Shown one piece after another: positions 19,731 to 35,675 of a DNA stretch of 35,675 nucleotides; positions within the stretch are counted from its first letter, which is position 1; each line of letters opens with the position of its first letter. Below the pieces are notes generated by a model. It was not told where the DNA came from, did not search any database, and was given only the letters and a program-made list of their open reading frames with translations. A program made the translations under genes and the position numbers. Source of the stretch: a virus; IMG/VR virus record IMGVR_UViG_3300032278_000048, positions 1-35,675 of that record. One strand, 5' to 3'.

Positions 19731-19755
19731 GTTATATACTATTATAAAGATTTAA

Positions 19756-19763
19756 GATAAATA
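19756..19763 (+). promoter_or_regulatory. T4-type late-promoter-like box (GATAAATA)
   Basis: GATAAATA in the 54-base gap after the giant gene. The twelve bases from here match those at 1886 exactly. Predicted initiation near 19769 would leave a leader of about 16 bases before ATG 19785. No hairpin terminator is visible between the giant gene and this box. Confidence 0.45.
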
Positions 19764-19784
19764 ATTATAACATAGGTTTATGGG

Positions 19785-20486
19785 ATGAAAGATAAACAAG
19801 TTGAACCAAAAAATACCAAGCCAGATGAAGTTGGTGGTGTCAGAATGGATGGGCATATTTTAATTCGTGATGTAACTGATAAGAATAAGCCAGTTGAATT
19901 AGTAAACAAAAGAAATGCTATTCATTTTGGTAATATGGCTAAGCATTTAGCACAATCAATTGCTGGTAAAGCAAATTATGATATTCATTATATGGGTTTT
20001 GGCAATGGCGGTTCAAATGTTAATAATTTAGGAAAAATTACTTACAAAGCGGCAAATGTAAGTGAAGCACCCGACGAAGGTACACCAACATCTAATTTGT
20101 ATGGATTAAAATATTTTAAGGTTGTTGATAATTTAGCATCATCGAATTCAACACCGACAAAGAATAAAATTGAAATATTATCTAGTACTACAAGTTATAC
20201 AGATATTAAAGTAACTTGTACTTTAGATTTTGGTGAGCCGAGCACACAATCATCATTTGACAATAGCACAGATTTTACAGATGATTTTGTTTTTGATGAG
20301 TTGGGATTATTTAGTTTAGATGTTACTACTGGAAATGAAATTTCAGGTACGGCAACTTTGCCCGCAACATTGTTGGATTTTAATTCAAAATGTTACATGT
20401 TAACACATGTTATTTTTCATCCAGTACAAAAATCATTGAATAGGATTATTGAGATTGTATATACAGTCCGAATTCAGATGCAATAA
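19785..20486 (+). CDS. Virion structural protein of unknown role (233 residues)
   Basis: The sequence has a pattern seen in structural proteins of marine T4-like phages: HILIRDV near the N-terminus, NKRNAIHFGNMAKHLAQSI (about 42-60), YMGFGNGG (about 69-76), a central VTCTLDFGEPS segment, FVFDELGLF, and a C-terminal LTHVIFHPVQKSLNR segment ending in a short strand. No catalytic motif, signal peptide or membrane segment is visible. It follows the giant baseplate-position protein and precedes the fibre-like gene, so a baseplate or tail role is likely. It does not resemble T4 gp8, gp9, gp10 or gp11 by eye. Confidence 0.75.
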   Translation: MKDKQVEPKNTKPDEVGGVRMDGHILIRDVTDKNKPVELVNKRNAIHFGNMAKHLAQSIAGKANYDIHYMGFGNGGSNVNNLGKITYKAANVSEAPDEGTPTSNLYGLKYFKVVDNLASSNSTPTKNKIEILSSTTSYTDIKVTCTLDFGEPSTQSSFDNSTDFTDDFVFDELGLFSLDVTTGNEISGTATLPATLLDFNSKCYMLTHVIFHPVQKSLNRIIEIVYTVRIQMQ

Positions 20487-20501
20487 TAGAGAGAGAAAAT
20501 T

Positions 20502-22373: not shown

Positions 22374-22391
22374 TAGTTTATAACCTTACCG

Positions 22392-22426
22392 AGTAAAAAG
22401 CAGGACAATTGTCCTGCTTTTTTACT
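22392..22426 (+). terminator. Rho-independent-type terminator, possibly bidirectional
   Basis: Arms AGTAAAAAGCAGGAC (22392-22406) and GTCCTGCTTTTTTACT (22411-22426) pair around an AATT loop with one bulged T. The core GCAGGACAATTGTCCTGC is a perfect palindrome. The T-run on the + strand and the A-run on the left arm suit termination in both directions, though no - strand gene was found. It closes the baseplate/fibre unit 19 bases after the fibre-like gene. Confidence 0.85.
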
Positions 22427-22441
22427 TTGTGTTTAAAATAC

Positions 22442-22449
22442 AATAAATA
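22442..22449 (+). promoter_or_regulatory. T4-type late-promoter-like box (AATAAATA)
   Basis: AATAAATA lies 16 bases after the terminator and so is well placed to restart transcription for the gene at 22554. It matches TATAAATA at 7 of 8 positions. Predicted start near 22455 would give a leader of about 100 bases, much longer than at the other boxes. Confidence 0.4.
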
Positions 22450-22468
22450 CAATTGTGGCAAGATTATT

Positions 22469-22522
22469 ATGTGTGGAGACTCAGACACTATAATAAACGG
22501 GTTAATCGTACTAGCCACATAG
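22469..22522 (+). CDS. Possible 17-codon leader ORF upstream of 22554
   Basis: ATG 22469 to TAG 22520-22522 encodes MCGDSDTIINGLIVLAT, inside the long leader of the gene at 22554. Its stop codon lies in the right arm of the hairpin 22507-22526, so ribosomes finishing it would melt that hairpin. Only a weak purine stretch (GGCAAGA) precedes it. An ORF this short can arise by chance; the geometry with the hairpin is the only reason to list it. Confidence 0.2.
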   Translation: MCGDSDTIINGLIVLAT

Positions 22523-22526
22523 TACG
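22507..22526 (+). promoter_or_regulatory. Leader hairpin before the 22554 gene
   Basis: CGTACTA (22507-22513) and TAGTACG (22520-22526) form a perfect seven-pair stem with a GCCACA loop. A strong Shine-Dalgarno (AAAGGAG, 22540-22546) follows 13 bases later and is not covered by the stem. The hairpin could stabilise the mRNA or control the leader; the sequence alone does not say which. Confidence 0.5.
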
Positions 22527-22553
22527 TGATCGAGTGACGAAAGGAGAAGAAAT

Positions 22554-23465
22554 ATGGCTTACTCTTCCGGTAATACGATCCTAGCAGCTGATTTTAATAC
22601 ATTCCGTACAAGTGTTGAAGATATTTTTGGAGACACTAATTCGGGAAGTGTAGCTCCCGGGGCGTTGATTTTCGGATATGGTGAAACTATGCTCCAAGCT
22701 GCTGTTTCGGCTGGGACTGGTATCACAGCTGCACAATGGAATAATCTTTATATGATGATTCATCGTTGTGCAGGACATCAAGGTTCAACTATAAGTATTG
22801 GGGGTAGCGTAACTGCTGATGCTTACAGTGCAGGCGGATCAATTGGTGTTGACGGTAACTTGGCAGCGGATATTGCAACCGTTGTTGCTAACAAGGGAAA
22901 CGTCGATGCCTCAAATTTGACAACAACAGCTCGCAATGACAAAAGTGGCACTGCAAATTGGAGTGCATCAACTGTTCATAGTTTTACACAAACTTTTGCA
23001 AGTTATGATGCCGCAAGGCATTTTTACAACCAAGGTGGCGCGATGATTATTAGTGCATCTCGCACAGGCGGTAGTGGACATACACAAAATAGTAATTGGA
23101 CAGCATTATTAACTGCTGTCGGAACAGTTACTATGACTGTAGCATCTACTGCACAAAGTGGAAGTGGTGGAACAGCAGGCAAAAGCTTTGATGATATTGT
23201 TGCGGCAGTTAGTACTACGCATGTTATATTCAATCAAGCTGATTCAGGTGCATATGCTTCAAATAACTATAAAATTGAATGCTCATGTAATGCCGCTAAA
23301 ACAGTTTATACATGGACCATTACGTTTACTGATGGACATGCGAATGCTTTTGAAGATTATGTTGATGGTACATTAGCATCAAATGTTTCAGAGAAACGTG
23401 CAACAGGTACATACGTTAATAGCGATGCACCTTCATACAGTGCTGGTTCGTATACGCAATCGTAA
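22554..23465 (+). CDS. Minor structural / tail protein (303 residues)
   Basis: Two patterns common in marine T4-like phage structural proteins are visible: an N-terminal region LAADFNTFRTSVEDIFG ... FGYGETMLQAAVSAGTGITAAQWNNL (about 10-65) and a C-terminal region ARHFYNQGGAMIISASRTGG ... SNWTALLTAVGTVTM (about 153-197). The rest is Ser/Thr/Ala/Gly-rich. No enzyme motif is seen. It has its own terminator-separated unit, a late-promoter-like box, a long leader and the clearest ribosome binding site of the structural block, all suggesting high or separately tuned expression. By eye it uses more G and C than its neighbours. Confidence 0.72.
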   Translation: MAYSSGNTILAADFNTFRTSVEDIFGDTNSGSVAPGALIFGYGETMLQAAVSAGTGITAAQWNNLYMMIHRCAGHQGSTISIGGSVTADAYSAGGSIGVDGNLAADIATVVANKGNVDASNLTTTARNDKSGTANWSASTVHSFTQTFASYDAARHFYNQGGAMIISASRTGGSGHTQNSNWTALLTAVGTVTMTVASTAQSGSGGTAGKSFDDIVAAVSTTHVIFNQADSGAYASNNYKIECSCNAAKTVYTWTITFTDGHANAFEDYVDGTLASNVSEKRATGTYVNSDAPSYSAGSYTQS

Positions 23466-23485
23466 TATAAATTTATAAATTTATA
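23466..23485. repeat. 20-base perfect AT palindrome made of tandem TATAAATT
   Basis: Immediately after the TAA of the preceding gene come two direct copies of TATAAATT (23466, 23474) and a third imperfect one (TATAATTT, 23482). The first twenty bases equal their own reverse complement. Each TATAAATT matches the T4 late core at 7 of 8 positions, so these could be promoter boxes in either direction, or simply AT-rich spacer. Confidence 0.4.
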
Positions 23486-23493
23486 ATTTGAGT

Positions 23494-23520
23494 CCCCTAG
23501 ATAAGTAATATTACTAGGGG
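23494..23520 (+). promoter_or_regulatory. Hairpin covering the ribosome binding site of 23527, with a late-promoter-like box in the loop
   Basis: CCCCTAG (23494-23500) pairs perfectly with CTAGGGG (23514-23520). The right arm plus G23521 is the only Shine-Dalgarno candidate (AGGGGG) for the ATG at 23527, so read-through mRNA would have it masked. The loop includes GATAAGTA (23500-23507), 6 of 8 to the T4 late core and close to the GATAAATA boxes elsewhere. Initiation at T4 spacing (about 23513) would produce an mRNA without the left arm and with a free ribosome binding site. There is no T-run, so it is not a typical terminator. Confidence 0.5.
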
Positions 23521-23526
23521 GTTCTT

Positions 23527-23874
23527 ATGACTACCGATATTGATAAAGCATATGAGTTTGCTAATTTTAGAATAGCATTAATGAACCAAAAACATTTGCT
23601 TAAAGTGCAAACAGAAGAAAGATTAAATTGTTATATTAATGGCGGAATATTTAAAGCCGAACCTGGTTTTATTGCATTCATTGGAGATCTAATTAATTCT
23701 GGACATAGTAAGTTACCAATCCTTGATGTAAATGATACCCCAGTTATGATTGATGATTTACAAGAGTTTAAAAATTTTTTGTTATCTTCATATATTGAAG
23801 TTGTTTATGATTATTGGAATGATTGGATAAAAATAAAAGACGAAAAAGATTTGGAAAAATTAGCTGATGTCTAA
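23527..23874 (+). CDS. Unknown small phage protein (115 residues)
   Basis: A mostly helical-looking acidic protein. Notable segments are DKAYEFANFRIALMNQKHLL at the N-terminus, a CYINGGIFKAEP turn (about 35-46), FIGDLINSGHSKLPILDVNDTPVMIDD in the middle, and a charged C-terminal helix. The general form (an opening helix with YEFAN, then an NGG turn, then 'lD-x-N-x-TPv-x-IdDL') is what I associate with small conserved proteins next to tail genes in T4-like marine phages, but no function is known to me. It opens the glycosyltransferase-like run, overlapping the next gene by 8 bases. Confidence 0.7.
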   Translation: MTTDIDKAYEFANFRIALMNQKHLLKVQTEERLNCYINGGIFKAEPGFIAFIGDLINSGHSKLPILDVNDTPVMIDDLQEFKNFLLSSYIEVVYDYWNDWIKIKDEKDLEKLADV

Positions 23875-24658
23875 AGGCGTATTAATATTTGCTTTCAATA
23901 ATGAACAAATAGACTATGAAAAAATTGCTAAATTAAATGCGTTAATGATAAAGTATAATATGGATGTTCCGGTGCATATTATTACTGATGCAGGCACTGA
24001 TGTAGCAATAGGTAAAAGACATTATAAAGATTTCAATCAGGTATTATCTTTTAATAATGGGTTACGATGGAATTCTTTTGAGTTATCACCATTTGACGAA
24101 ACTTTAGTACTTGATGCAGATTATTTAATAATGAATGATCGGTTGAATGCAGTATGGGGTAATAAAAGTGAATTAATGATTAATACAGATATTGTACCTT
24201 TGTTTGCAGGTGAGTTTATTGAAAATAAACGAGTTGATGAATCCGGTATTACAATGGCATGGGCTACAGCAATTTATTTTAAAAAAACCAAGTTGCCAAA
24301 ATATTTTTTTAATATTATGAAACATGTATCTGAGAACTATTTGTATTATAGGCAGTTGTATAATTTGTCAGGTGGGTTGTATAGAAATGATTATGCAGCT
24401 AGTATAAGTTTACATATGTTAAATGGTTTCAATGAGGGAGTATCGGATATTTTGCCGTTACCAGTTAATAAGATAGTTACTGCAAAACCAGAAGATCAAA
24501 TTATTAGTTTTCCTTCTGTTAATCAAGTTAAAGTTTTAATAACTAAACCTGAAAAGAATGAGTTTGTAGTTAATTCTATAAAAAATACAAATGTGCATTT
24601 TCTTAATAAGAAAACTATATTAGAAAATCATGATAGCATAGCAGAGTGGTATCAATGA
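23867..24658 (+). CDS. Glycosyltransferase-like protein, GT-A type with DAD motif
   Basis: The N-terminal strand-helix (GVLIFAFNNEQIDYEKIAKL) and the VPVHIITDAG strand fit a nucleotide-sugar-binding fold. DETLVLDADYLIMND holds the DxD motif (Asp83-Ala-Asp85), which in GT-A enzymes binds the metal and sugar nucleotide. The later AWATAIYFKKTKLPKYFFNIM segment is of the type seen in GT8-like enzymes. Donor and acceptor cannot be told. The start ATG lies inside the previous gene and the stop overlaps the next ATG (ATGA), so translation is probably coupled. It is similar in plan to the next protein. Confidence 0.65.
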   Translation: MSKGVLIFAFNNEQIDYEKIAKLNALMIKYNMDVPVHIITDAGTDVAIGKRHYKDFNQVLSFNNGLRWNSFELSPFDETLVLDADYLIMNDRLNAVWGNKSELMINTDIVPLFAGEFIENKRVDESGITMAWATAIYFKKTKLPKYFFNIMKHVSENYLYYRQLYNLSGGLYRNDYAASISLHMLNGFNEGVSDILPLPVNKIVTAKPEDQIISFPSVNQVKVLITKPEKNEFVVNSIKNTNVHFLNKKTILENHDSIAEWYQ

Positions 24659-25527
24659 GTGATACGAGAAAAGGTTATTTTATTATAACTCAAAATAATA
24701 AAAAGTATGATTATATACGTATGGCTTATGCTCTTGCATTGAGTATTAAAGTTACGCAAACGGAAGTTAACAATGTTAGTATTGCATTACCTGGATCAGA
24801 AGAACATTTAGTTACAGGCAAACAACGATGGGTATTTGATCATATTGTCGAACTTCCATGGGGCGATGATGCAGAAAATGCAGAATGGAAAGTTAATAAT
24901 AAATGGAAGTATATTCATTGTACTCCGTATAACGAAACAGTTATATTAGATGCTGATATGCTTTTTTTAAATGATTATAGTTATTGGTGGGAAATATTAC
25001 ATAGAAAACCGGTGTGGGCAACAACGTGTGTTAGGACATATAGAAATGAAATAGCATTAGATAATTATTATAGAAAAACATTTGTTAATAATAAGTTGCC
25101 AAATATCTATACAGCATTTATGTATTTTCGTAATGAAAAAATTACTTGGGATCTAGTAAAATTAGTGCAGGAAATTATGCAAAATTGGGAAGTTTATTAT
25201 GCAAAACATTTAGATGCTTCACGACCGACATGGTTAAGTGCCGATGTAGCATATGCTCTTGCAATTAAAATACTTGGAATTGAAAATGAATGCACAAGTA
25301 ATTTAGCAATTCCGTCTTTTGTTCATATGAAAACTCGTATGCAAAATGTTAATAATGCATTAACAGATGAGAATTGGACAAAATATTTTCCTTCATATTT
25401 TACAGATGATTGTAAACTTAAAATTGGTAATTATCAAATTTTTTATCCATTTCATTATCATGTTAAAGAATGGTTAACGGATGATATTGTTAAAAAGTTA
25501 GAGGATGCATATGGAAAGAGTAGTTAA
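24655..25527 (+). CDS. Glycosyltransferase-like protein, GT-A type with DAD motif
   Basis: I chose ATG 24655, which overlaps the previous stop as ATGA, over the in-frame GTG at 24646. The 290 residues include an N-terminal YFIITQNN strand with YIRMAYALALSIK helix, HIVELPWGDDAENAEWKVNNKW, and ETVILDADMLFLND with Asp99-Ala-Asp101 as the DxD motif. The segments KLPNIYTAFMYFRN and WLSADVAYALAIKI fit a GT8-like acceptor half. The C-terminal IFYPFHYHVKEWL is unusual in carrying several His. No membrane segment is visible, so it should act in the cytoplasm. Confidence 0.7.
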   Translation: MSDTRKGYFIITQNNKKYDYIRMAYALALSIKVTQTEVNNVSIALPGSEEHLVTGKQRWVFDHIVELPWGDDAENAEWKVNNKWKYIHCTPYNETVILDADMLFLNDYSYWWEILHRKPVWATTCVRTYRNEIALDNYYRKTFVNNKLPNIYTAFMYFRNEKITWDLVKLVQEIMQNWEVYYAKHLDASRPTWLSADVAYALAIKILGIENECTSNLAIPSFVHMKTRMQNVNNALTDENWTKYFPSYFTDDCKLKIGNYQIFYPFHYHVKEWLTDDIVKKLEDAYGKSS

Positions 25528-26077
25528 ATTTTACGTTTATTTTAACAGTAAAAATGAATTAGTTTCAGTGTCAGGCAATAAAGATGCAACTTCTCATCAT
25601 CGGTGGGCTATTTTTTCAAGAGGAGAAGTTGAAGGTTTTGTTACTGGGAAAAAAAGGCTGAGTGATTATGTTGTTGTTGAGGATAGAAAAACTGGTAAAA
25701 TTATACTTTCTAAAAAGGAATCACATGAGATTGTTGTAAGGACAATTGATAATTTATTGTATAAAGTACCTTCTAATAATGATGTATATGATATTAAGAT
25801 ACGGAATAATAAAAGGGAAAAGATTTTGACATTCTTTTTAAGTGATAATATAAAAAATGCTACTGAGAACACTTCGCAACTTATTGTAAATGGTATAGTA
25901 AAATTGCATTTTTATTTTACAAAAAAAGATGATCCGCATATGCTGAGAAAGCATGTTTCAGTCAATGTAGAAGATATATTTCAAAATAATGTAATAACCA
26001 ATTATACAGAAACCTTAAATAATGTTAGTGTTTTTACAAAAAGAATCTATGAAAATTATTTGTATGAGGAGGTATAA
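25511..26077 (+). CDS. Unknown protein (188 residues)
   Basis: ATG 25511 is preferred to ATG 25505 because GAGG (25501-25504) then lies six bases upstream. The protein is beta-rich in appearance: VVKFYVYFNSKNELVSVSG, then RWAIFSRGEVEGFVTGKKRLSDYVVVED, KTGKIILSKK, IVRTIDNLLYKVP, and a C-terminal half with VKLHFYFTKKDDPHMLRKHVSV. No catalytic motif was recognised. Its alternating strands could be a virion or adaptor fold. It starts inside the preceding glycosyltransferase-like gene and shares bases with the next start (TAATG), so it belongs to the same operon. No function can be proposed. Confidence 0.65.
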   Translation: MERVVKFYVYFNSKNELVSVSGNKDATSHHRWAIFSRGEVEGFVTGKKRLSDYVVVEDRKTGKIILSKKESHEIVVRTIDNLLYKVPSNNDVYDIKIRNNKREKILTFFLSDNIKNATENTSQLIVNGIVKLHFYFTKKDDPHMLRKHVSVNVEDIFQNNVITNYTETLNNVSVFTKRIYENYLYEEV

Positions 26078-26982
26078 TGGCAGAACGTAATTTAAGTGAG
26101 TTTGATGTTTTTTATATTAGTTTTGACGAGCCGAACGCTGAAAAAAATTATGCTGATTTAGTTAATAAAATACCATGGGCACAACGAGTACATGGTGTCA
26201 AAGGATTTGATAGTGCTCATAAAGCCGCGGCAACTGCAAGTAAAACAGATCGTTTTATTACTATCGACGGCGATAATATTGTTGACGAAAAGTTTTGGGA
26301 TACAACATTAGAGATAGATCCAGAAGTAAATGAAAGATCTATTTGGAGTTGGAGCAGTAAGAATATTATCAATGGGTTAGTGTATGGCAACGGTGGAATA
26401 AAACTTTGGCCTAAACAACCTACACTTACAATGAAAACACACGAAGCTGCAGAAAATGAAACTGCCGCTATTGATTTTTGTTGGGATTTAGATTACCAAC
26501 AGATGAATGATATTTATTGTATTAATTACCCTAATGGTAATCCGTATCAAGCATTCCGTGCAGGTTTCCGTGAGGGTGTAAAAATGTCATTAGCAGAAGG
26601 CCAGAAAGTAAGACCCGAACCTGGTGAATTTGAAAGGATGATTTGGCATAAAAATTACAAAAGATTGCTTATATGGGCAACAATTGGTGCCGATGTTGAA
26701 AACGGTCAGTGGTCAGTATATGGCACACGTCTTGGTTGTAAACTTACTAATTTAGATCCACATTTTAATCATCATAATATAAGAGATTATGATTGGTTTC
26801 GAGAGTTTTTTAATACAGAAGTTGGGCCACTTGTTGGCGATGATAATATTCATTTAAAGATTGAAGAACTTGGGGATGAGTTGAGAGGTAAATTAGGTAT
26901 GCAGCTCGGTGAGTTAAATGCCCAAGCATCAGCATTTTTTAAGAAAGTTTATGTAAATCCTCCGCGTGTAGGTTCTAAATGA
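26077..26982 (+). CDS. Glycosyltransferase-like protein with DGD motif; paralogue of 28349
   Basis: The protein opens with FDVFYISFDEPNAEKNYADL, then PWAQRVHGVKGFDSAHKAAA and RFITIDGDNIV, in which Asp64-Gly-Asp66 takes the DxD place. Similar phage proteins are usually named glycosyltransferase, but activity is not shown by motif alone. It shares with the gene at 28349 the segments PWAxRVxGVKG, NxLVYGxGGxKLxP, FxAGFREx-type and GADxENGxW, so the two come from one ancestor. A GAGGAGG ribosome binding site four bases before the ATG is very strong. Its stop overlaps the next ATG. The pair flanks a radical-SAM gene, which hints that the three act on one substrate. Confidence 0.65.
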   Translation: MAERNLSEFDVFYISFDEPNAEKNYADLVNKIPWAQRVHGVKGFDSAHKAAATASKTDRFITIDGDNIVDEKFWDTTLEIDPEVNERSIWSWSSKNIINGLVYGNGGIKLWPKQPTLTMKTHEAAENETAAIDFCWDLDYQQMNDIYCINYPNGNPYQAFRAGFREGVKMSLAEGQKVRPEPGEFERMIWHKNYKRLLIWATIGADVENGQWSVYGTRLGCKLTNLDPHFNHHNIRDYDWFREFFNTEVGPLVGDDNIHLKIEELGDELRGKLGMQLGELNAQASAFFKKVYVNPPRVGSK

Positions 26983-28355
26983 ACGATGCCTTTTTTAATA
27001 ATGTAACTGATATTAAAAAAAAACTAAATCGAGTTAGCAGTAGTCTTTGTTTGGCTAAATGGTCGCAAGTAACTATACATTTACAAAATGGGCATACACA
27101 TAGTTGTCATCACCCAGGAACACATAAAGTACCATTAGAGGAATTAGTTAATAATCCTACAGCTTTACATAATACAAATTTTAAGAAAGCCCGGCGTAGA
27201 GAAATGTTAAATGGAAAACGCCCTAAAGAATGTCAGTATTGCTGGAATGTAGAAGATAGTCCTGGTGAGAATTTTAGTGATAGGCATTTTAAAAGTGCCG
27301 CAACGTGGTCTGAGCCTATGTTTGATGAGATTGTAAATGGTTCATATGATGCTAATCCTAATCCGAGATATCTTGAAGTTAGTTTCGGTAATGTTTGTAA
27401 TTTTAAATGTATGTATTGTTATCCTAACATTAGCAGTCAATGGTATGAAGAATCAAAACAATACGGCCCATATCCAACAAGTAGAAAATTTGGTAGTTTA
27501 GATCATTTAACACATCAAGATAAAACTCCAATACTTGAAAGAGAACATAATCCATATGTTGAAGCATTTTGGAAATGGTGGCCTGACTTATATAACTCAT
27601 TACATACATTTAGAATTACCGGCGGTGAGCCATTATTAAACAAAAATACTTTTAAGGTTTTAGAAGAGATTAATAAAAATCCACGAAAAGAACTTGAGCT
27701 AGCAATAAACACAAATATGTGTGTGCCAGATAAAAACTTTGATGATTTTATTAAACTTATAAAACCTATTTCAGAAGAGTTAGATGTTGTTTCAGTCTTT
27801 ACTAGTGTTGAAGCAACTTATCAACGTGCTGAATATATTCGGTATGGTTTAAATTATGAACAGTTCTGGAATAATATTGATAGGCTGTTAGAGGAAGTGC
27901 CTAGACTTTATATTGCTTTTATGTGTACATATAATGCGTTAAGTGTAACAAGTTTTACAGATTTTTTAAAGACAATATATAAAAAGAGAAAGGAGTTAAT
28001 AATTGATGAAAATCATAATGATTATCCTCAATTAATGGTAAGTATTCCGTATCTTCGTCACCCAGAATTTTTATCTATTAAAATGTTAGATGATTCGTTT
28101 GAAAAATATATTGCTGAAAGTGTTAGTTATATGAGAAATCATTTAGAGGATGATCAAACATCTGGATTTGTAGGATCTGAAATGGAGATGATGTCCCGGA
28201 TTTTAAATTGGTTTCAAGTAAAAAATAATGTTCCAATTGATCGTATTGATTTTGTAAAATATGTTAATGAGTATGATCGCCGAAAAGGAACAAATTTTTT
28301 AAAAACATTTCCAGAGTATGTTAAATTTTATGAGAGGTGTAAAGAATTATGTTAG
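26979..28355 (+). CDS. Radical SAM protein with N-terminal twitch-like cysteine domain
   Basis: Cys140, Cys144 and Cys147 (CNFKCMYC) give the CX3CX2C motif that holds the 4Fe-4S cluster for S-adenosylmethionine cleavage; TGGEPLL (214-220) is the SAM-binding GGEP motif. Upstream, Cys24, Cys43, Cys85 and Cys88, in the order CLAKW ... HSCHHP ... KECQYCW, fit the N-terminal twitch domain of the 'twitch domain-containing radical SAM' family, which is found in marine phages and bacteria and whose substrates are unknown to me. The 458-residue length is similar to the protein at 32201. It overlaps the neighbours on both sides (ATGA at the start, ATGTTAG at the end). An auxiliary iron-sulphur cluster is an inference from the extra cysteines. 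Confidence 0.85.
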   Translation: MNDAFFNNVTDIKKKLNRVSSSLCLAKWSQVTIHLQNGHTHSCHHPGTHKVPLEELVNNPTALHNTNFKKARRREMLNGKRPKECQYCWNVEDSPGENFSDRHFKSAATWSEPMFDEIVNGSYDANPNPRYLEVSFGNVCNFKCMYCYPNISSQWYEESKQYGPYPTSRKFGSLDHLTHQDKTPILEREHNPYVEAFWKWWPDLYNSLHTFRITGGEPLLNKNTFKVLEEINKNPRKELELAINTNMCVPDKNFDDFIKLIKPISEELDVVSVFTSVEATYQRAEYIRYGLNYEQFWNNIDRLLEEVPRLYIAFMCTYNALSVTSFTDFLKTIYKKRKELIIDENHNDYPQLMVSIPYLRHPEFLSIKMLDDSFEKYIAESVSYMRNHLEDDQTSGFVGSEMEMMSRILNWFQVKNNVPIDRIDFVKYVNEYDRRKGTNFLKTFPEYVKFYERCKELC

Positions 28356-29074
28356 AAATTTTTCATTTAAGTTATTATGAACCGTTTGCAGATGAGACAT
28401 ATCAAGCACTTTGTAAAAAATTTCCATGGGCAAAGAGAGTGTCCGGAGTTAAGGGAATTTTTTATGGGCACAAAGAATGTGCAAGACAATCTCTTACAAG
28501 TATGTTTTATGTTGTCGATGCTGATGCTATATTGGAAGAGGGTTTTGATTTTTCGTATACACCGCAAGATGATAAATTCTATTGGAGTAGTGTAAAACAG
28601 ACAGATTGTATACATGTATGGCGTTGTAAAAATTCTGTAAATGATCTTGTGTATGGGTATGGTGGAGTAAAATTATTCCCAACTGAGCCAGTTCGTAATG
28701 CAACAGATTGGCATATCGATTTTACTACTAGTGTTGCTGGTAAGTTTAAAGCAATGGAAGAAATAAGTAATTCAACATATATTAATTCAGATCCATTTTC
28801 AGCATTTAAAAGTGGCTTTAGAGAATGTACAAAACTTGCTTCGAGGGTTATTAAAGATCCTGAAGGATATTATAGTAGTGAAAATGATCCGCGTATTGTA
28901 GAATGGTTAAATGTATGGTGTACTAAAGGTGCAGATCGAGAAAACGGTGAATGGGCTATAACTGGTGCTAAAGCTGGAAGAACTTATGGCGAAATGCATA
29001 AAGGTAACACCGAAGCCCTTGATAAAATTAATGATAGAGATTGGTTGCAAGAACAATATAAACTCTATTGTTGA
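28349..29074 (+). CDS. Glycosyltransferase-like protein, shorter paralogue of 26077
   Basis: The plan follows the protein at 26077: EIFHLSYYEPFADETYQAL, PWAKRVSGVKGIFYGHKECA, then MFYVVDADAIL with Asp57-Ala-Asp59 as the DxD motif, NDLVYGYGGVKLFP, FSAFKSGFRECTKLA and GADRENGEWAITG. At 241 residues it lacks about 60 residues, mostly at the C-terminus. The start lies within the radical-SAM gene. Only two bases separate its stop from the -35 element of the promoter at 29077, so the operon ends here or continues through that promoter. No terminator is visible between them. Confidence 0.68.
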   Translation: MLEIFHLSYYEPFADETYQALCKKFPWAKRVSGVKGIFYGHKECARQSLTSMFYVVDADAILEEGFDFSYTPQDDKFYWSSVKQTDCIHVWRCKNSVNDLVYGYGGVKLFPTEPVRNATDWHIDFTTSVAGKFKAMEEISNSTYINSDPFSAFKSGFRECTKLASRVIKDPEGYYSSENDPRIVEWLNVWCTKGADRENGEWAITGAKAGRTYGEMHKGNTEALDKINDRDWLQEQYKLYC

Positions 29075-29076
29075 TG

Positions 29077-29105
29077 TTGACATTTTTGGTTTTATTTCGT
29101 ATAAT
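29077..29105 (+). promoter_or_regulatory. Perfect sigma70-consensus promoter
   Basis: TTGACA (29077-29082) and TATAAT (29100-29105) are both exact consensus hexamers with the optimal 17-base spacer. Initiation would fall near 29112, inside the purine-rich ribosome binding region, giving a very short leader. T4 early genes use strong host-sigma70 promoters like this, whereas late genes use TATAAATA boxes. It sits in a 50-base gap, the only real gap in the 23.5-34.7 kb region apart from the 14 bases at 32187. It should drive the repeat-methyltransferase gene and the radical-SAM genes after it. Confidence 0.85.
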
Positions 29106-29110
29106 ATAAA

Positions 29111-29118
29111 AGAGGTGA
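29111..29118 (+). promoter_or_regulatory. Strong Shine-Dalgarno for 29125
   Basis: AGAGGTGA is nearly the full complement of the 16S rRNA tail (GGAGGTGA), six bases before the ATG at 29125. Because the predicted transcription start is at about 29112, part of it could lie at the extreme 5' end of the mRNA. It fixes the start of the repeat protein. Confidence 0.8.
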
Positions 29119-29124
29119 TTTCTT

Positions 29125-31095
29125 ATGGAAGTACATGAAATATTAGATAGATATGAAATGTTATACAGTGACAAGATACCTGTATTAAGCGATTTAAGGC
29201 GGACAATTATTGATGAGGATCTTAGTAGTATTTTTAGAATTGCTACTAGTGTTTCAATGGATAAGGATGAAGTTGATGATTTAAGAAAGTCTGTAATGGA
29301 AAAAAACCCACATGCTATGTTTAGAGTTTTTTTGTTTTTTACTGCTCAAGGGTCATTAGGTACTGGACTTATTGATGAACTACGTAAAGTATTGAATGAA
29401 AAAAATCCTCGGTCTGTTTTTAGAATTTTTGAATATATTGGTATTACATCAGTTGATGATTTACGGAAAGCAATTACAGAGAAAAATCATCGTTCGGTTT
29501 TTAGATTAATGGATCATCTTGGAGCAACTACTGAAGATGATGATCTACGAAAAGCAATTACAGAGAAAAATTATCGATCAATATTCCGTGTATTTGATCA
29601 ATATGAATCATCGGAAAACTTAGATGATCTACGAAAAGCAATTACAGAGAAAAATCATCGATCTATATTTCGTGTGTTTGAACACCTTGGCCTGTACAAT
29701 TATCCCGGGTTAGGCCCGGCTATAGACAATTTGCGTAAAGCAATGACAGAGAAAAATTTAAATGCTGTATTTAGAATTTTTGAAGAGCATAAAGATGCTG
29801 ACTTGGATGATATTCGTAAAACTATTATAGAAGAAAACTTACATTCATTATTTAGGTTGTTAGAACATTTTCGTAAAACTCATAATAATTTAGATATACC
29901 GTTGGAAGATTTACGGAAAGCAATTGTTGAAGATAATTTACGTTCATTGTTTAGGCTGATTGAGAATGAAGATACTCTACCTGTTGAAGATTTACGAAAA
30001 GCAATAGTTGAAGATAATTTGCATTCTTTGTTTAGATTAATTGAACATAGAATTAGTCTTTCAGAGGAGAATACTGATTTGCTTAATATATCTATTCTTG
30101 TTCGGCAAGCATCTTTAGAAGATAATTTACATGCCTTTTTTAGATTACTTCCTTTAGTAGCAGATATTGTTGAGCACACTGAAATACTTGATGATTTGCG
30201 TAGAGGAATTGTTGAAGATAATATACATTCACTTTTTCGTGTGTTGTTATATTTTCAGGAGGTTGAGCAACTTCCGTTATCGATGCCAGTTGAAGATTTA
30301 CGGAAAGCTATTCTTGAAGATAATGTGTATTCAATTTTTAGAGTGTTAGCTCGAATTGATTCTGAGAACCGAGAAATGAATTCATTACGGCAAGCTGTAG
30401 TTAATAAAGAGATACGTAATTTGGTCAGTATATTTACTGACAATGAGGATGATGTTCCGCATTTATTTGATACATTACCAAAAGCATTAAAACATTTTCC
30501 TGAATCAAATTTGGAAGATGCATTTTCTCGTGGACAAATTTTAAGTAAAAAATGGCTTATTAGTGAATTAGTAGGTTTAGAACCAGAGCTTGGAACTGTG
30601 TTTATATGTGCTGGTTGGTATGCAACATTAGCATCTCTTTTGTTTGAATCAACTCTTAATATTGAAAAAATTAGATCATTTGATAGTGATGAGAATTGTT
30701 GGCAAATTGCAGATGCAATTAATAGACCATATGTGTTAGATGGATGGAAATTTAAAGCACAAACAGCCGATATTAATAATATTAACTATGCCGAGGAGCA
30801 TACTTATATAACACATAGATATGATCTCGAACCGCAAGAATTAACTGATACGCCAGACACAATTATTAATACAAGTTGTGAACATATAGAAAATTTTGAT
30901 AATTGGTATAGTAAAATACCTGCAGGTAAGTTAGTAGTATTACAGACAAATGATGATGATTCAATTGATGACCATATTAATTGTTCTCAAACACTTGAGG
31001 AGTTTAAAAATAGTTGTCCAATGGCACAAGAACTTTATTCAGGTGTTTTAAATCTTGATAGATATAATAGGCTTATGGTAATTGGATATCGATAA
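29125..31095 (+). CDS. Fourteen-repeat helical protein fused to a SAM-methyltransferase-like domain (656 residues)
   Basis: Residues 22-437 hold 14 copies of a repeat with core D-L-R-K-A-I-x-E-(K/D)-N-x-x-S-x-F-R-(V/L) and variable linkers, spaced 27-36 residues. The LR (or equivalent) positions are 24, 53, 86, 113, 141, 169, 203, 230, 263, 290, 326, 358, 392 and 421. Each unit looks like two short helices, so an alpha-alpha solenoid is likely. From about 466 comes a different domain: KKWLISELVG (475-484), GTVFICAGWYATLASLL (490-506) in the place of the SAM-binding loop, SFDSDENCW (518-526) with the acidic strand end, and DTIINTSCEHI (578-588) followed by KLVVLQTND. This resembles class I methyltransferases of marine phages, where the same GWY and NTSCEH patterns occur. 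I do not recognise the repeat. The catalytic state and the substrate are unknown. It is first behind the sigma70 promoter and its stop shares bases with the next start. Confidence 0.78.
   Translation: MEVHEILDRYEMLYSDKIPVLSDLRRTIIDEDLSSIFRIATSVSMDKDEVDDLRKSVMEKNPHAMFRVFLFFTAQGSLGTGLIDELRKVLNEKNPRSVFRIFEYIGITSVDDLRKAITEKNHRSVFRLMDHLGATTEDDDLRKAITEKNYRSIFRVFDQYESSENLDDLRKAITEKNHRSIFRVFEHLGLYNYPGLGPAIDNLRKAMTEKNLNAVFRIFEEHKDADLDDIRKTIIEENLHSLFRLLEHFRKTHNNLDIPLEDLRKAIVEDNLRSLFRLIENEDTLPVEDLRKAIVEDNLHSLFRLIEHRISLSEENTDLLNISILVRQASLEDNLHAFFRLLPLVADIVEHTEILDDLRRGIVEDNIHSLFRVLLYFQEVEQLPLSMPVEDLRKAILEDNVYSIFRVLARIDSENREMNSLRQAVVNKEIRNLVSIFTDNEDDVPHLFDTLPKALKHFPESNLEDAFSRGQILSKKWLISELVGLEPELGTVFICAGWYATLASLLFESTLNIEKIRSFDSDENCWQIADAINRPYVLDGWKFKAQTADINNINYAEEHTYITHRYDLEPQELTDTPDTIINTSCEHIENFDNWYSKIPAGKLVVLQTNDDDSIDDHINCSQTLEEFKNSCPMAQELYSGVLNLDRYNRLMVIGYR
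29188..30435 (+). repeat. Fourteen LRKAIxExNxxSxFR protein repeats
   Basis: Two subtypes are evident. Units 3-7 read mostly I-T-E-K-N or close to it; units 9, 10, 12 and 13 read I-V/L-E-D-N. Unit 11 (VRQASLEDNLHAFFRLL) and unit 14 (LRQAVVNKEIRNLVSIF) are degenerate, as expected at capping or junction positions. The conserved Arg after Phe (FR) is kept in all but the last unit, and the E-x-N triplet in most. Confidence 0.85.
29455..29706 (+). repeat. Three tandem 84-base units inside the repeat protein gene
   Basis: Units start at 29455, 29539 and 29623. The second and third share their first 33 bases exactly, and the first differs from them by only a few bases in that stretch. The remainder of each unit has diverged. 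This is the only part of the gene where the DNA itself is still nearly identical, so it marks the most recent expansion. Confidence 0.8.
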
Positions 31096-32186
31096 TGTAT
31101 TCTTATGATGATATAAGGACAGTACATTTAGAAATTACACAACGCTGTCAGGCGGCGTGTCCTATGTGTGATCGTAATCAAAATGGTGGTGATGAAAATC
31201 AACACATGACTGATGCTGAGTTATCATTAGAAGATTGCAAAAAGATTTTTAGTGTTCCGTTCATTAAACAATTAAAAACAATGTATATGTGTGGCAACTT
31301 GGGAGATCCAATTGTTGCTAAGGATACATTGGAAGTATTTGCATACTTTAGAGAACATAATCCTACCATGTGGCTAAGCATGAATACTAATGCTGGCGCA
31401 CAAAAAGAAGAATGGTGGGAACAACTTGCTAAAATTTTTGGACGGATGGGTGCAGTTATTTTTAGTGTTGATGGATTAAAAGATACTAACCATTTGTATA
31501 GGCAAAATGTTAATTGGGAAATTGTTGAACGTAGTATGAGAGCATTTATTCGTGCAGGAGGTAGGGCACGTTGGGATTATATTATTTTTGAACATAATGA
31601 ACATCAAGTTGATAAAGCAGAAAAATTAGCAGCTGTAATGGGTTTTGAAAAATTTATGAAAAAGAAAACTGGACGTTTCTTTAGTAGTGCAACATTTAAA
31701 GGAAAGGATAAGCATCAAGCAGTAAATCGTAAAGGTGCTGAAACTCAAACTCTTAAAAAACCCAAAGAAGAAAAATTTTTAAACAAGGCAACTGAAAAAG
31801 AGAATCAGTTAGTAAAACAATATGGTAGTATGATGGATTATTATGATACATGTCAGGTAGATTGTAAAGTTGCCGGAGTAGAAAAAAATATTTTTATAAC
31901 TGCTGAAGGGTTGCTAATGCCTTGTTGTTGGACAGCTGGTCGTATGTATAAATGGTGGCATAATGATCCAACAGTTGAACAAGTTTGGGATTTTATTAAT
32001 AGAGCCGGTGGTAAAGAAGGAATTAATGTTGTTAATAACAGGCTTGAAGATGTTATTAATAGTAGTGGTTTGTTGCAAGATATTAAAAATAGTTGGTCAT
32101 TAAGTAGTTTATCTGAAGGGAAATTGGGCGTTTGTTCTCAGAAGTGCGGTACAGAGTTCGATCCGTTTGCTGAGCAATTTAGATAA
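31095..32186 (+). CDS. Radical SAM / SPASM-type protein, paralogue of 33594
   Basis: Cys18, Cys22 and Cys25 (CQAACPMC) are the CX3CX2C cluster ligands. In place of GGEP is GNLGDP (67-72). FSVDGLKDTNHLYR (123-136) is shared with the protein at 33594. The C-terminal part has Cys253, Cys257, Cys277, Cys278, Cys347 and Cys351, with the SPASM-like run IFITAEGLLMPCCW, able to hold at least one auxiliary cluster. SPASM enzymes usually modify peptides or proteins. A Lys-rich stretch at about 186-232 (KKKTGRFF ... KKPKEEKF) may be a flexible insert or nucleic-acid or peptide contact. The start shares bases with the stop of the repeat-methyltransferase gene. Confidence 0.85.
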   Translation: MYSYDDIRTVHLEITQRCQAACPMCDRNQNGGDENQHMTDAELSLEDCKKIFSVPFIKQLKTMYMCGNLGDPIVAKDTLEVFAYFREHNPTMWLSMNTNAGAQKEEWWEQLAKIFGRMGAVIFSVDGLKDTNHLYRQNVNWEIVERSMRAFIRAGGRARWDYIIFEHNEHQVDKAEKLAAVMGFEKFMKKKTGRFFSSATFKGKDKHQAVNRKGAETQTLKKPKEEKFLNKATEKENQLVKQYGSMMDYYDTCQVDCKVAGVEKNIFITAEGLLMPCCWTAGRMYKWWHNDPTVEQVWDFINRAGGKEGINVVNNRLEDVINSSGLLQDIKNSWSLSSLSEGKLGVCSQKCGTEFDPFAEQFR

Positions 32187-32200
32187 CACTAAATATTACT

Positions 32201-33601
32201 ATGAGCAAATATCCTTCGGATACATTTTGTATTCTTCCATGGGTGCATTTAAGTACCCGTCCTAATGGGCATATGAGAGTTTGCTGTACAGCAAATGCCT
32301 CAAGTGTTGGCCCAACCAATGATAGAGAATTTGGAGGCGAAGTCGGCATCCTTAAAGGTGCTGATGGTAAGCCTGCTAATTTAAATCATAGTGATTTTTT
32401 AAGTAGTTGGAATAATGACTACATGAAAAATACCCGACTGCAAATGCTTAACGGTGAGAAGCCACCATCGTGCCTAAAATGTTATAAAGAAGAAGATGCT
32501 GGTCATAATAGTAAACGCATGTGGGAAACTGACTATTGGGCAAAACGAGTTGACGTAGATGAACTACTTGCAGAGACCGAAGCCGACGGCAGTACTCCTC
32601 CTAAAGTTCGTTATATTGATATGCGGTTTGGTACTAAATGTAATCTTAAATGTGTAATGTGTTCACCACATGATAGTTCATTGTGGGTTAAAGATTGGAA
32701 CACACTATACCCACAGATTGAAAATGAAACATTAAAACAAACAATGATGTGGGAAAATAAAGGAAAGACTAATCATGCTTCTTATAATTGGCATAAAACT
32801 AATCCTGTGTTTTGGGAACAGTTATATGAACAAATACCGCATATGCGACAATTATATTTTGCCGGAGGCGAGCCATTAATTATTGATGAACACTACACAT
32901 TATTAGAACGTGTTATTGAAATGGGTTATGCTGATCAGATGGAAATACGATACAACAGTAATGGTGTTGAATGGCGAGATGATTTATTTGACTTATGGAG
33001 TCATTTTAAATTAGTAAGGTTTCATTATAGTGTTGATGACATTGGCGAACGCAATGATTACGTTAGGTTTCCAAGTAAATGGGAAAGGAACGAAGAAGTG
33101 TTTAATATTTTAGACACCGAAACAGGAGACAATACTGAAGTAACAATTGCTTGTGCAGTTCAGGCATTAAACATACATTACATACCAGATTTTCTAAAAT
33201 GGAAACTTGAATATGGTTTTAAGAAAATTAATATGTGGCCCTTTGGTGCAGGCGGCATTAACTATCATTTTGTGTATCATCCACCGCATCTTAATGTTAA
33301 GATATTACCTGCTTGGTTTAAAGATGAAGTTGAACGTAAGTATGAAGAATTTATTCCATGGTGGGAAGAAAATTGGGAAAAAGGTGTTCCTAGTTGGTAT
33401 AAAGGAAAAGTTACACAAGACCAGTGGCGTACTGCAAGTTATGGTGTGAGTCGTTTACGTGGTATGGTTAGTTTTATGAAAGCGGAAGATTGGTCGCAGC
33501 GTATGGTAGAATTTAGAGAATACATTACTAAACTTGATAAATTGCGTGGTACAGATTTTTGTAAAACATTTCCTGAAATGGCTAGGTTGTTAGATGAGTA
33601 A
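32201..33601 (+). CDS. Twitch-domain radical SAM protein
   Basis: FCILPWVHLSTRPNGHMRVCC (9-29) and the pair CLKC (91-94) followed by an EEDAGHNSKR segment are the N-terminal twitch signature; Cys10, Cys28/29, Cys91 and Cys94 are candidate cluster ligands. The radical-SAM motif is CNLKCVMC (Cys147, Cys151, Cys154) and FAGGEPLI carries the GGEP motif. RYNSNG and HYSVDDIGERNDYVR follow in the expected barrel positions. It has 466 residues and is a diverged relative of the protein at 26979. Fourteen bases separate it from the previous gene, with no clear Shine-Dalgarno; ACTAAATA at 32188 matches the late core at 6 of 8 positions, too weak to call. Two different radical-SAM subtypes side by side suggest sequential steps. 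Confidence 0.87.
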   Translation: MSKYPSDTFCILPWVHLSTRPNGHMRVCCTANASSVGPTNDREFGGEVGILKGADGKPANLNHSDFLSSWNNDYMKNTRLQMLNGEKPPSCLKCYKEEDAGHNSKRMWETDYWAKRVDVDELLAETEADGSTPPKVRYIDMRFGTKCNLKCVMCSPHDSSLWVKDWNTLYPQIENETLKQTMMWENKGKTNHASYNWHKTNPVFWEQLYEQIPHMRQLYFAGGEPLIIDEHYTLLERVIEMGYADQMEIRYNSNGVEWRDDLFDLWSHFKLVRFHYSVDDIGERNDYVRFPSKWERNEEVFNILDTETGDNTEVTIACAVQALNIHYIPDFLKWKLEYGFKKINMWPFGAGGINYHFVYHPPHLNVKILPAWFKDEVERKYEEFIPWWEENWEKGVPSWYKGKVTQDQWRTASYGVSRLRGMVSFMKAEDWSQRMVEFREYITKLDKLRGTDFCKTFPEMARLLDE

Positions 33602-34730
33602 TCAATATTCACCTAATTATACTGGGGTTCAAATTGCGTTAAGTACAAATTGTAATCTGTTATGCCCAGGTTGTAATAGAACACATTTTGACGATGATAA
33701 GTTTAGTTTGAATCCGATCGTTACTAAGAATCAGTTTTTAGATAAACAAGTTTTACTTGATTTTGTAAAAAATAAAGCTAGTGCTTGGTTAACAAATATT
33801 GAGTTTGCTGGATTAGTTGATGACCCATTATCTTATCCGTGGTTGCTTGAACTTCTTAATGAAGTATTAGAAATAAAACCGTCACTTCGTATAACTTTTC
33901 ATACAAATGCAAGTTTACGAACACCAGATTATTTTGTAAAATTAGCAACAATATTGAAACAGTTTAATGGACATTCGGTTAATTTTAGTGTTGACGGGTT
34001 GCGAGATACAAATCATTTATATCGTGTTGGAGCAAAATGGGATAAAATAATGGAAAATGCTAAAGCATTTATAGGTGCAGGTGGTAGTGCAACATGGCAG
34101 TTTATTATTTTTCCATGGAATAAACATCAAGTAGATGATATAAAAATGTTAGCTAATGAAATGGGATTTTCATCTGTTATTATTCGTAATAATCGAGATT
34201 CGTTTTTGGATAATTTAAAATTTTCATCCACTGGCACTAATGATAAACCTTGGTATAATATAAAACAACAGCATACAACTAGTTATTATGTGAAAGTTCG
34301 CCCAGTTGAAGAAATGTTAGAAGATTTTAATGAGAGATTAGAAGAGAATAGTTTTTCTATGCCGTATAATATTGATTGTATATGGCATAATGATAGTAAA
34401 ATTTATATTAGTTATGATGGCACTGTTTGGCCTTGTTGTTATATTGCATTTGATTCATTGAGAAATCCCAAAAGGAAAGAATTGCAAGAATCAAAATTTT
34501 CAATCTATGAGAAGAATTTTAATAATTTATATCATTATTCAATTGATGAAATTATGTCTAAAGAACCATTTTCATCAGATATATTAAATAGTATTACTAA
34601 TGAAAAAGAGCACGGATTAGGTAAAATTGATGCTTATTATACTTGTATTGATACTTGTTCAACAAGAGGTTTTGAATTAAAACCAAACCATATGCAGGCA
34701 CATAAGACTTATGACTATGACATCAATTGA
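33594..34730 (+). CDS. Radical SAM / SPASM-type protein, paralogue of 31095
   Basis: Cys20, Cys24 and Cys27 (CNLLCPGC) are the cluster ligands; the GGEP position reads GLVDDP (73-78), similar to GNLGDP in the protein at 31095. FSVDGLRDTNHLYR (131-144) is nearly identical to that paralogue, as is the FIxAGGxAxW segment. The C-terminal Cys262, Cys281, Cys282, Cys351 and Cys355, with KIYISYDGTVWPCCY, form a SPASM-like domain with one fewer upstream Cys than its paralogue. The start lies inside the stop region of the twitch gene, so the two are probably translated together. The next gene starts inside its 3' end. Confidence 0.85.
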   Translation: MSNQYSPNYTGVQIALSTNCNLLCPGCNRTHFDDDKFSLNPIVTKNQFLDKQVLLDFVKNKASAWLTNIEFAGLVDDPLSYPWLLELLNEVLEIKPSLRITFHTNASLRTPDYFVKLATILKQFNGHSVNFSVDGLRDTNHLYRVGAKWDKIMENAKAFIGAGGSATWQFIIFPWNKHQVDDIKMLANEMGFSSVIIRNNRDSFLDNLKFSSTGTNDKPWYNIKQQHTTSYYVKVRPVEEMLEDFNERLEENSFSMPYNIDCIWHNDSKIYISYDGTVWPCCYIAFDSLRNPKRKELQESKFSIYEKNFNNLYHYSIDEIMSKEPFSSDILNSITNEKEHGLGKIDAYYTCIDTCSTRGFELKPNHMQAHKTYDYDIN

Positions 34731-35675
34731 CATTGAGAAATATAATGGAATTATGTTTCGTAGATTATATACAGACTCGAACTCCGCTGACTCTTGGCCT
34801 CGTTTTTTAGATATAATTGTTGATCCAGCAATAGAACTCGAGTTACAATCTTCATGGCAACGATTACTGCCAATGGTAGATGAAAGGATTAAATATGATG
34901 AGCTTAGTAGTAACATTCATGATTGGATTGAACATAATCCACAAATAGAAAACTCAGGATTAACAAGATTTATCAATAAGGCCGCTATTATTCCATCAGT
35001 CTTTGATGGACTAAGTGAGTCATTTATTCGATATCAATCTCTTAGGCTTCGACATTTGCATGGAGAATATATACCGTTTCATTTAGATAATTCTATTTTT
35101 TTGCCGAAGCATTTTGCCGAGCTGGAAACATCTCGTGATTCAAGAGGTGGCACTAGTCAACGATTATATATTGATAATGATAATGGCAAATATTATGATT
35201 TAGATGAAGGTGATTGGGTACTTATAAGTTTACCATTTTATCCGGCTGGTGATCATATTTTAATGTATGATGGTATTCTTAATCAAGCACAGTTATTGGG
35301 TGTACCTGTTGTTGTTGATTGTAGTCTTTTTCCGTATACGGAAAATATGAAATTTAATTTTGAACATCCAGCAATTACGGAAGTACTTTTTAATCTATCA
35401 ATGGGACTAGGTATTACTGATAGTACGATAGGAGTAAGATACAGTAATTATACTAATGGATTTTTAAATATGAAACATGAACATGGATATATATTAGATA
35501 CTACAAAAGCATTAATTTCACATTTGCTAGATATTGTCCCTTCAGATTATTTTGTTAAAAAATGTAGTACATATAGAGATGAGATTTGTGATGATTTTGG
35601 ATTTACACCAACTAACGTTGTTAGTTTATGTCTTGCATCATATGAAGATGAATTTTTCCTTGATCGCGACTCATC
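34711..35675 (+). CDS. Unknown protein, weakly aminotransferase-like, 3' end missing
   Basis: The frame opens at ATG 34711 (or ATG 34717), overlapping the upstream gene by 20 bases, and runs for 321 codons to the window edge without a stop. By eye, the order of segments resembles a fold-type I PLP enzyme: a strand-helix DWVLISLPFYPAGDHILMYD (168-187), then VPVVVDCS (198-205) in the place of the PLP-ring Asp strand, then FNLSMGLGITDSTIGVRYS (227-245) in the place of the SxSKxxGxxGxRxG region. The Schiff-base Lys would be Met231. If the likeness holds, it is a non-catalytic relative or one that uses another residue. This is a weak reading based on pattern; it could be an unrelated family. Confidence 0.5.
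   Translation, partial: MTMTSIDIEKYNGIMFRRLYTDSNSADSWPRFLDIIVDPAIELELQSSWQRLLPMVDERIKYDELSSNIHDWIEHNPQIENSGLTRFINKAAIIPSVFDGLSESFIRYQSLRLRHLHGEYIPFHLDNSIFLPKHFAELETSRDSRGGTSQRLYIDNDNGKYYDLDEGDWVLISLPFYPAGDHILMYDGILNQAQLLGVPVVVDCSLFPYTENMKFNFEHPAITEVLFNLSMGLGITDSTIGVRYSNYTNGFLNMKHEHGYILDTTKALISHLLDIVPSDYFVKKCSTYRDEICDDFGFTPTNVVSLCLASYEDEFFLDRDS

Follow-up and report, generated by a model that had tools for sequence, protein, structure and literature searches.

The window analysed here is a stretch of DNA of 35,675 nucleotides from a large uncultivated phage (IMG/VR record IMGVR_UViG_3300032278_000048), which ends in five open reading frames placed almost without gaps on the plus strand (29125–31095, 31095–32186, 32201–33601, 33594–34730 and 34711 to the end). 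They lie behind a sigma70-type promoter on the same strand, TTGACA-17-TATAAT (29077–29105; 12 of 12 positions matched, spacer of 17), the sole 12/12 site found between positions 19700 and 35675. This is the arrangement of the preliminary description, which had listed five packed genes behind an exact promoter. Exact 12/12 sites were also present 37–49 nucleotides upstream of the first of these genes, REP, in five other contigs, all diverged (L006, L007, L008/L009, L010 and L015). Loci totalling 3.66 Mb contain 129 such sites as background, so that the promoter ahead of REP exceeds chance; L011 and L017 have no exact promoter at this position. A scan for late promoters (TATAAATA, CTAAATA) showed no enrichment and was uninformative.

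The boundary of the five-gene cassette is not a natural one. It is in part an artefact, since the contig ends inside the last gene, AT, and a contig that continues the window (L012) carries seven additional radical-SAM genes and encodes a protein resembling inosamine-phosphate amidinotransferase. Directly upstream of the REP region there are a fourth radical-SAM gene, rS0 (26979–28355), which was missing from the cassette as first described, and two GT-A-like genes (26077–26982 and 28349–29074). The whole island comes after baseplate and tail-fibre genes, and is inserted in a block, adjoining the latter, that includes two paralogous phrog_1903 proteins (23867–25527, plus strand; 1.6e-5 and 2.3e-6); the module has the same block as its neighbour in 40 of the 80 methyltransferase-anchored loci scanned, which were the 80 best of about 590 matches.

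The gene at 28349–29074 (plus strand, 241 amino acid residues), here called GT, encodes a putative, divergent GT-A-like glycosyltransferase, as judged from an AlphaFold model (pLDDT 93.9) whose best PDB folds were SunS, WrtF and the PBCV-1 capsid glycosyltransferase (E of about 3e-4 to 5e-3, with a weak TM of about 0.4). Searches of Pfam, PHROG and PDB sequences with its sequence gave no match, and profiles of GT and of the methyltransferase, run against PDB sequences, returned nothing useful. Asp57 and Asp59 of a D-x-D motif are invariant in the GT family, which we found in viral contigs only. The gene at 26077–26982 (plus strand, 301 residues), labelled BP, is a GT-A-like paralogue that aligns with the same family, sharing 34% identity and the invariant D-x-D with the GT protein.

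REP (29125–31095, plus strand) is composed of an array of 12–14 helical repeats (about 29275–30480) joined to a class-I methyltransferase domain at about 30412–31092 (pLDDT of the predicted fold 94.6). In a Foldseek search against the PDB, the C-terminus gave 792 matches at E<=1e-3, the top ones among those listed being class-I methyltransferase folds with TM of about 0.5–0.56, in agreement with the methyltransferase-like repeat fusion noted earlier. Motif I is unusual (GWYxxL), and the acidic residues following strand 2 (Asp91 and Asp93) are conserved in the family. The repeats are confined to this methyltransferase family, with 3–14 copies among the members listed; many members have none, and in fusion proteins the repeats sit between the GT and methyltransferase domains. 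Of the two roles that had been suggested for the array, scaffold or substrate, a spacer or scaffold fits, given that the repeats are dispensable and interdomain in fusions, whereas, on the same grounds, the array is no obligatory substrate and a substrate role is disfavoured.

The four radical-SAM proteins encoded in the window, all on the plus strand, score above the PF04055 cut-off and contain the CxxxCxxC motif. Two of them, rS0 (458 residues, with the motifs CNFKCMYC and GGEP) and rS2 (32201–33601), are N-terminal-twitch enzymes that reach 340 and 432 bits, respectively, with model NF033640 (curated cut-off of 170 bits), far above its threshold, although the model of this subfamily names no reaction; rS1 and rS3 fall below that cut-off. 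rS3 (33594–34730) is a probable SPASM enzyme by PF13186 (26.9 bits, cut-off 21.5; 6e-6). rS1 (31095–32186; CQAACPMC) is SPASM-like, its match to the Pfam SPASM model being weak (14.1 bits, cut-off 21.5), and has five family-conserved cysteines (Cys257, Cys277, Cys278, Cys347 and Cys351) and 57–80% identity across 74 viral loci. This order, SPASM-like, twitch and probable SPASM, agrees with the alternation described earlier. No known cofactor equivalog matched at cut-off, and no RiPP maturase model matched above cut-off.

AT (34711–35675, plus strand, partial as it runs off the contig) aligns with fold-type-I aminotransferases, but the Schiff-base lysine expected of an active PLP-dependent enzyme is replaced by methionine (FNLSMGLG versus FSLSKGLG). 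Every other aligned member of the family keeps the lysine, which bears out the suggestion of a pseudo-aminotransferase in the window.

The conserved unit is the succession GT, methyltransferase and rS1, kept in more than 94% of the methyltransferase- or rS1-anchored loci with sufficient flank. GT was present in 40 and rS1 in 39 of 41 such methyltransferase-anchored loci, and GT and the methyltransferase were each present in 43 of 45 rS1-anchored loci, counts that include near-identical contigs and come from scans of the best 80 of about 590 matches. The core recurs in more than 100 aquatic virus fragments; as a rule the GT gene overlaps that of the methyltransferase by 14 or 17 nucleotides, and the two are fused in some cases (GT-GT-methyltransferase in 13 proteins, GT-methyltransferase in one), some fusions having the order GT-GT-repeats-methyltransferase. 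Distance correlations between the three families over 99 loci were significant and moderate (r 0.34–0.43), meaning that they travel together yet also shuffle. As companions in rS1 loci, rS2-like genes are frequent (34/74), and rS3-like (13/74) and AT (10/74) genes are sporadic. The closest relatives of the window (L006–L019) end after rS1 and contain nothing from rS2 on, and on both counts we rejected a five-gene unit. What stands of the dedicated pathway proposed in the preliminary description is a modification-type gene set with a linked core, not a fixed cassette, and of the expected gene order it is the linkage of the repeat protein's methyltransferase to rS1 that was found, not that of the second SPASM gene.

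A small protein of 64–95 residues, CL3, is encoded in 53 of the 80 best-scoring methyltransferase loci (out of about 590 matches), usually between the methyltransferase and rS1, and is conserved along its entire length; the small proteins of this interval had no match in PHROGs. Cultured phages virtually lack the module: among 50,697 sequenced phages, GT, REP and AT had no match and rS1 had none but distant ones. Nor did our literature searches turn up a description of it. In a scan of bacterial contigs, rS1 retrieved one contig from a metagenome-assembled genome with GT, methyltransferase, CL3, CL17 and rS1 in the phage order, probably a phage contig. A second rS1-like bacterial match (G036) had an uninformative neighbourhood.

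Several lines of context point to sugars. The methyltransferase has bacterial relatives at 30% identity in five related large genomes, where they sit in polysaccharide clusters and have GT4 and GT28 glycosyltransferases, a UDP-sugar dehydrogenase and an ABC transporter as neighbours, and one related island encodes a UDP-glucose dehydrogenase-type enzyme. In one island next to its tail-fibre genes, the SAR11 phage Mosig EXVC030M (a Pelagibacter phage, and the closest cultured relative that we found) encodes proteins distantly homologous to the methyltransferase (1.6e-24), rS1 (5e-22; 27% identity) and AT (1.3e-19), alongside a UDP-4-amino-4-deoxy-arabinose aminotransferase, an epimerase and a carbamoyltransferase; unlike the window, it has no GT-family member and no repeats, and its AT retains the PLP lysine. 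The Campylobacter phages CP220 and CPt10 carry an interchangeable module of five clustered radical-SAM genes and an amidinotransferase (PMC2853527), which includes an rS1-like protein (26% identity). The CP220 cluster also has two proteins with nucleotide-diphospho-sugar-transferase domains and lies near baseplate-type genes. The four radical-SAM genes of the window, with the seven and the amidinotransferase-like gene of L012, resemble this content in kind, not through common descent of the whole cluster; the CP220/CPt10 stretch has no homologue of the GT family, the repeat-methyltransferase or CL3. Cassettes of radical-SAM and glycosyltransferase (GT8) genes were likewise described in the hypervariable tail-fibre region for host recognition of pelagimyophages (PMC7029224); the part of that report dealing with this region does not describe a GT-methyltransferase-rS1 unit, and the GT of the window has no Pfam match. 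The marine T4-like phage TARA_ERS488813_N000010 is comparable in gene number, with 12 radical-SAM genes, but was reported solely as a load of Fe-S enzymes (PMC5332604); genomes related to the window have up to 20.

We hypothesize, at about even probability, that these genes belong to an island by which the phage tailors glycans. This reading draws on the linkage and fusions of the core, the predicted folds, the neighbourhoods in bacteria and in Mosig, the amidinotransferase-like protein of L012, the UDP-glucose dehydrogenase-type enzyme of the related island and the recurrent position behind the tail-fibre block; the weak fold match of GT and the unusual motif I of the methyltransferase speak against it. 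The GT-A-like pair (26077 and 28349) would handle a nucleotide-linked sugar, the SPASM and twitch enzymes would oxidise, epimerise or deoxygenate its carbons, and the methyltransferase would cap it by O- or N-methylation, in this putative order, with the helical repeats as a possible spacer or docking arm joining methyltransferase to glycosyltransferase. AT would have lost transamination and, if still working, may be a structural partner. The island most likely builds or decorates an unusual sugar, either on the surface of the host or on the virion, and the glycan would most probably alter the cell surface of the infected host or decorate the virion. Set against the substrates first envisaged (virion protein, host polymer or peptide), the context favours sugars over peptides.

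SPASM proteins frequently modify peptides or proteins, and the SPASM-like traits of rS1 also suit such a role. Together with the methyltransferase, the enzymes could act directly on amino-acid side chains in proteins of the tail or capsid, the repeats being a docking platform. This reading agrees with the position of the island, which in the window and many relatives comes after genes for the baseplate and tail fibres, and with the top fold match of GT, a peptide S-glycosyltransferase. We consider it unlikely, as the core is also found elsewhere than at the tail block, next to the gene pair C8/C10, REP is preceded by a host-type promoter of its own, apart from the upstream operon, and the methyltransferase has its bacterial relatives in polysaccharide clusters.

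In 21 contigs the module adjoins instead a conserved gene pair, C8/C10, and all 14 C10 sequences of the family alignment contain DSGGFQ, which we take to be the active-site signature of tRNA-guanine transglycosylases. A nucleic-acid substrate is thus conceivable, with GT, methyltransferase and radical-SAM enzymes assembling a hypermodified base in the DNA of the phage or in a host tRNA, and a radical-SAM-rich Campylobacter phage also has a QueD-like gene. We regard this as quite improbable: C10 had no match in Pfam, PHROGs or PDB sequences and is absent from the window and most methyltransferase loci, and the island has no nucleotide-handling gene. A similarly low probability is given to auxiliary metabolism, in which the genes would aid the infected host by cofactor or small-molecule biosynthesis; earlier authors saw in phage radical-SAM genes an aid to Fe-S or low-oxygen metabolism (PMC5332604; PMC2853527), but no known cofactor equivalog was matched at cut-off here and GT-methyltransferase fusions are unusual in cofactor pathways. 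Least probable is a RiPP pathway maturing a small peptide, which the recurrent CL3 or the repeats might provide and with which the several small ORFs flanking rS1 agree, as no precursor ORF lies between the cassette genes in the window or in L006–L019, CL3 is conserved end to end, unlike a leader-core precursor, the repeats are dispensable and no RiPP maturase model reached its cut-off.

Radical-SAM islands of T4-like phages are already known, having been noted since 2010 with no assigned function. What stands apart here is the conserved, linked and sometimes fused GT-methyltransferase-rS1 core, nearly confined to uncultured phages, which offers a defined three-gene unit for expression and assay. 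More speculatively, and with a rather low probability, the GT-A pair, the repeat-scaffolded methyltransferase, the strongly conserved rS1 and up to 20 exchangeable radical-SAM enzymes per genome may form a virus-specific machine that installs a chemically unprecedented sugar (or protein) modification and so decides phage adsorption or exclusion on abundant aquatic bacteria. If a modified glycan is the product, as we favour, it would connect the most elaborate enzyme sets of phages with surface-glycan warfare among those bacteria.

Alongside an endolysin, gp25-like and baseplate-wedge genes and one ORF of 3,883 aa, this 35,675-base virus record carries at its right end a dense run of genes, all on one strand. 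The run opens with a block (22554-26077) regularly found at this position in relatives, followed by two GT-A-like paralogues (26077-26982 and 28349-29074, the latter hereafter GT), four radical-SAM genes (rS0, 26979-28355; rS1, 31095-32186; rS2, 32201-33601; rS3, 33594-34730), a fusion of a repeat array with a class-I methyltransferase (REP, 29125-31095) and an aminotransferase-like gene (AT, 34711-35675) that runs off the contig. The preliminary description had placed REP, rS1, rS2, rS3 and AT behind one promoter; these five genes and the promoter are all real, and rS0 and both GT genes had been omitted from the set.

Three of these genes form a conserved core. The identity of rS1 is 57-80% over 74 viral loci, and among viral contigs tblastn confirmed over 580 matches for each of the GT and methyltransferase families. 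Among the best 80 loci per scan, near-identical contigs included, methyltransferase-anchored loci with enough flank contained GT in 40/41 and rS1 in 39/41 cases, rS1-anchored loci contained GT and methyltransferase in 43/45 each, and GT-anchored loci contained methyltransferase in 28/38 and rS1 in 24/38; GT is thus the broader element, with the methyltransferase and rS1 as nearly obligate partners. Fusions were identified as well (GT-GT-methyltransferase in 13 proteins, GT-methyltransferase in one). Companions in the rS1 loci are rS2-like (34/74), rS3-like (13/74) and AT (10/74) genes, and in the closest relatives (L006-L019) rS1 is directly followed by minus-strand genes of different kinds. 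A small protein, CL3 (L012:1469-1690 and 45 more loci; 64-95 aa, conserved over its full length, NNIxxFNKxAHHNSxxWYKAVI...GPGxDV), usually lies between the methyltransferase and rS1 and had no match in PHROG. We also noticed an rS1 relative (L079:323-1411) whose C-terminus switches abruptly to an ending resembling the methyltransferase tail (DNRFMLIGQK), possibly by frameshift, recombination or assembly error, and a Neisseriaceae MAG contig (CANEUJ010000032.1) with GT, methyltransferase, CL3, another neighbour cluster (CL17), rS1 and more radical-SAM-like genes; the order is that of the phages, and the contig is probably a phage sequence binned in error.

The GT model (pLDDT 93.9) weakly matches the GT-A glycosyltransferases SunS, WrtF and PBCV-1 capsid GT (TM ~0.4), and a D-x-D pair is invariant in the family. 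A 1,522-aa protein (L117/L119, 6449-11017) is built of roughly six GT-type domains in tandem, several of them weak, the last being a canonical GT; three to five occur in series at other loci. The fold matches of the methyltransferase domain (pLDDT 94.6) are class-I methyltransferases (TM ~0.5-0.56). The repeat unit DDLRKAIxEKNxxSxFRL, predicted from sequence to be helical, is confined to this methyltransferase family among the listed proteins, whose members have 3-14 copies, the window having the most, and in fusion proteins it is placed between GT and methyltransferase. The array fits a spacer or docking arm; its distribution and placement speak against an obligatory substrate.

The promoter ahead of REP (TTGACA-17-TATAAT, 29077-29105) is the sole 12/12 site within 19700-35675. 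Identical hexamers lie 37-49 nt upstream of the REP start in L006, L007, L008/L009, L010 and L015, with a spacer of 17 or 18 and otherwise differing sequence, against a background of 129 exact sites per 3.66 Mb of loci; L011 and L017 lack exact hexamers ahead of REP. In most other phages, by contrast, the GT gene runs 14 or 17 nt into the methyltransferase gene; REP and the downstream genes thus have their own host-type promoter in this clade. Further exact promoters of this type precede other genes in L010 (11889, 12736 and 17034), which suggests that its phage uses host-type promoters there too. In AT, the PLP lysine, kept in all other aligned members, including the homologue of SAR11 phage Mosig, is replaced by Met in the window alone, and a neighbouring conserved Arg is also lost (one assembly).

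The island probably continues on L012, a 21.7-kb record, as an adjacent piece of one phage from the same assembly graph: the window's final 127 bases (35549-35675) are identical to L012:1-127, the kind of overlap that a k=127 graph produces. L012 has seven PF04055 matches (further radical-SAM genes), CL3, a 181-aa protein that by eye is short-chain-dehydrogenase-like, with no Pfam match, and a minus-strand amidinotransferase-like protein (8824-10035; StrB1/HsvA/SxtG match, 2.7e-9) similar to inosamine-phosphate amidinotransferase, whose gene adjoins radical-SAM genes as in the CP220 module. Related records have up to 20 (G008, 231 kb), 19 (G007, 303 kb) and 18 (G014, 110 kb) radical-SAM matches, and in L020-L030 a radical-SAM protein that weakly matches a B12-binding domain (e.g. 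L023:5696-7318, minus strand) adjoins the module.

BtrN and NeoN are twitch/SPASM radical-SAM enzymes acting on sugars, and three genomic contexts point to sugars as what the module may act on. Bacterial methyltransferase relatives (30% identity; five related large genomes) sit among polysaccharide-type neighbours (GT4 and GT28 glycosyltransferases, UDP-sugar dehydrogenase, ABC transporter). In Mosig, distant methyltransferase, rS1 and AT homologues lie together in an island adjoining tail fibres, alongside genes with UDP-Ara4N aminotransferase, epimerase and carbamoyltransferase annotations. Half of the methyltransferase loci have the island next to the tail-fibre block; for pelagimyophages, LPS-type genes and radical-SAM cassettes have been reported from this region (PMC7029224). 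Nucleic-acid modification is also possible, since in 21 contigs the module adjoins two neighbour clusters, C8 and C10, and C10 (L053:12588-14087 and relatives; 500 aa, conserved, adjoining C8; no match in Pfam, PHROG or PDB) has a TGT-like DSGGFQ motif in 14/14 aligned sequences.

Clusters of many radical-SAM genes with an amidinotransferase are known in T4-like phages since CP220/CPt10 (PMC2853527), and a TARA phage has 12 radical-SAM genes (PMC5332604). In the phage collection, GT (queried with a relative from L055), REP, AT and CL3 had no match, rS1 matched at 25-27% identity only, and the Mosig methyltransferase was detected by profile search only. The new elements are the conserved, virus-specific GT-methyltransferase-rS1 core with its fusions, a repeat arm that varies in copy number, the promoter conserved ahead of REP, and an aminotransferase that has lost its lysine.
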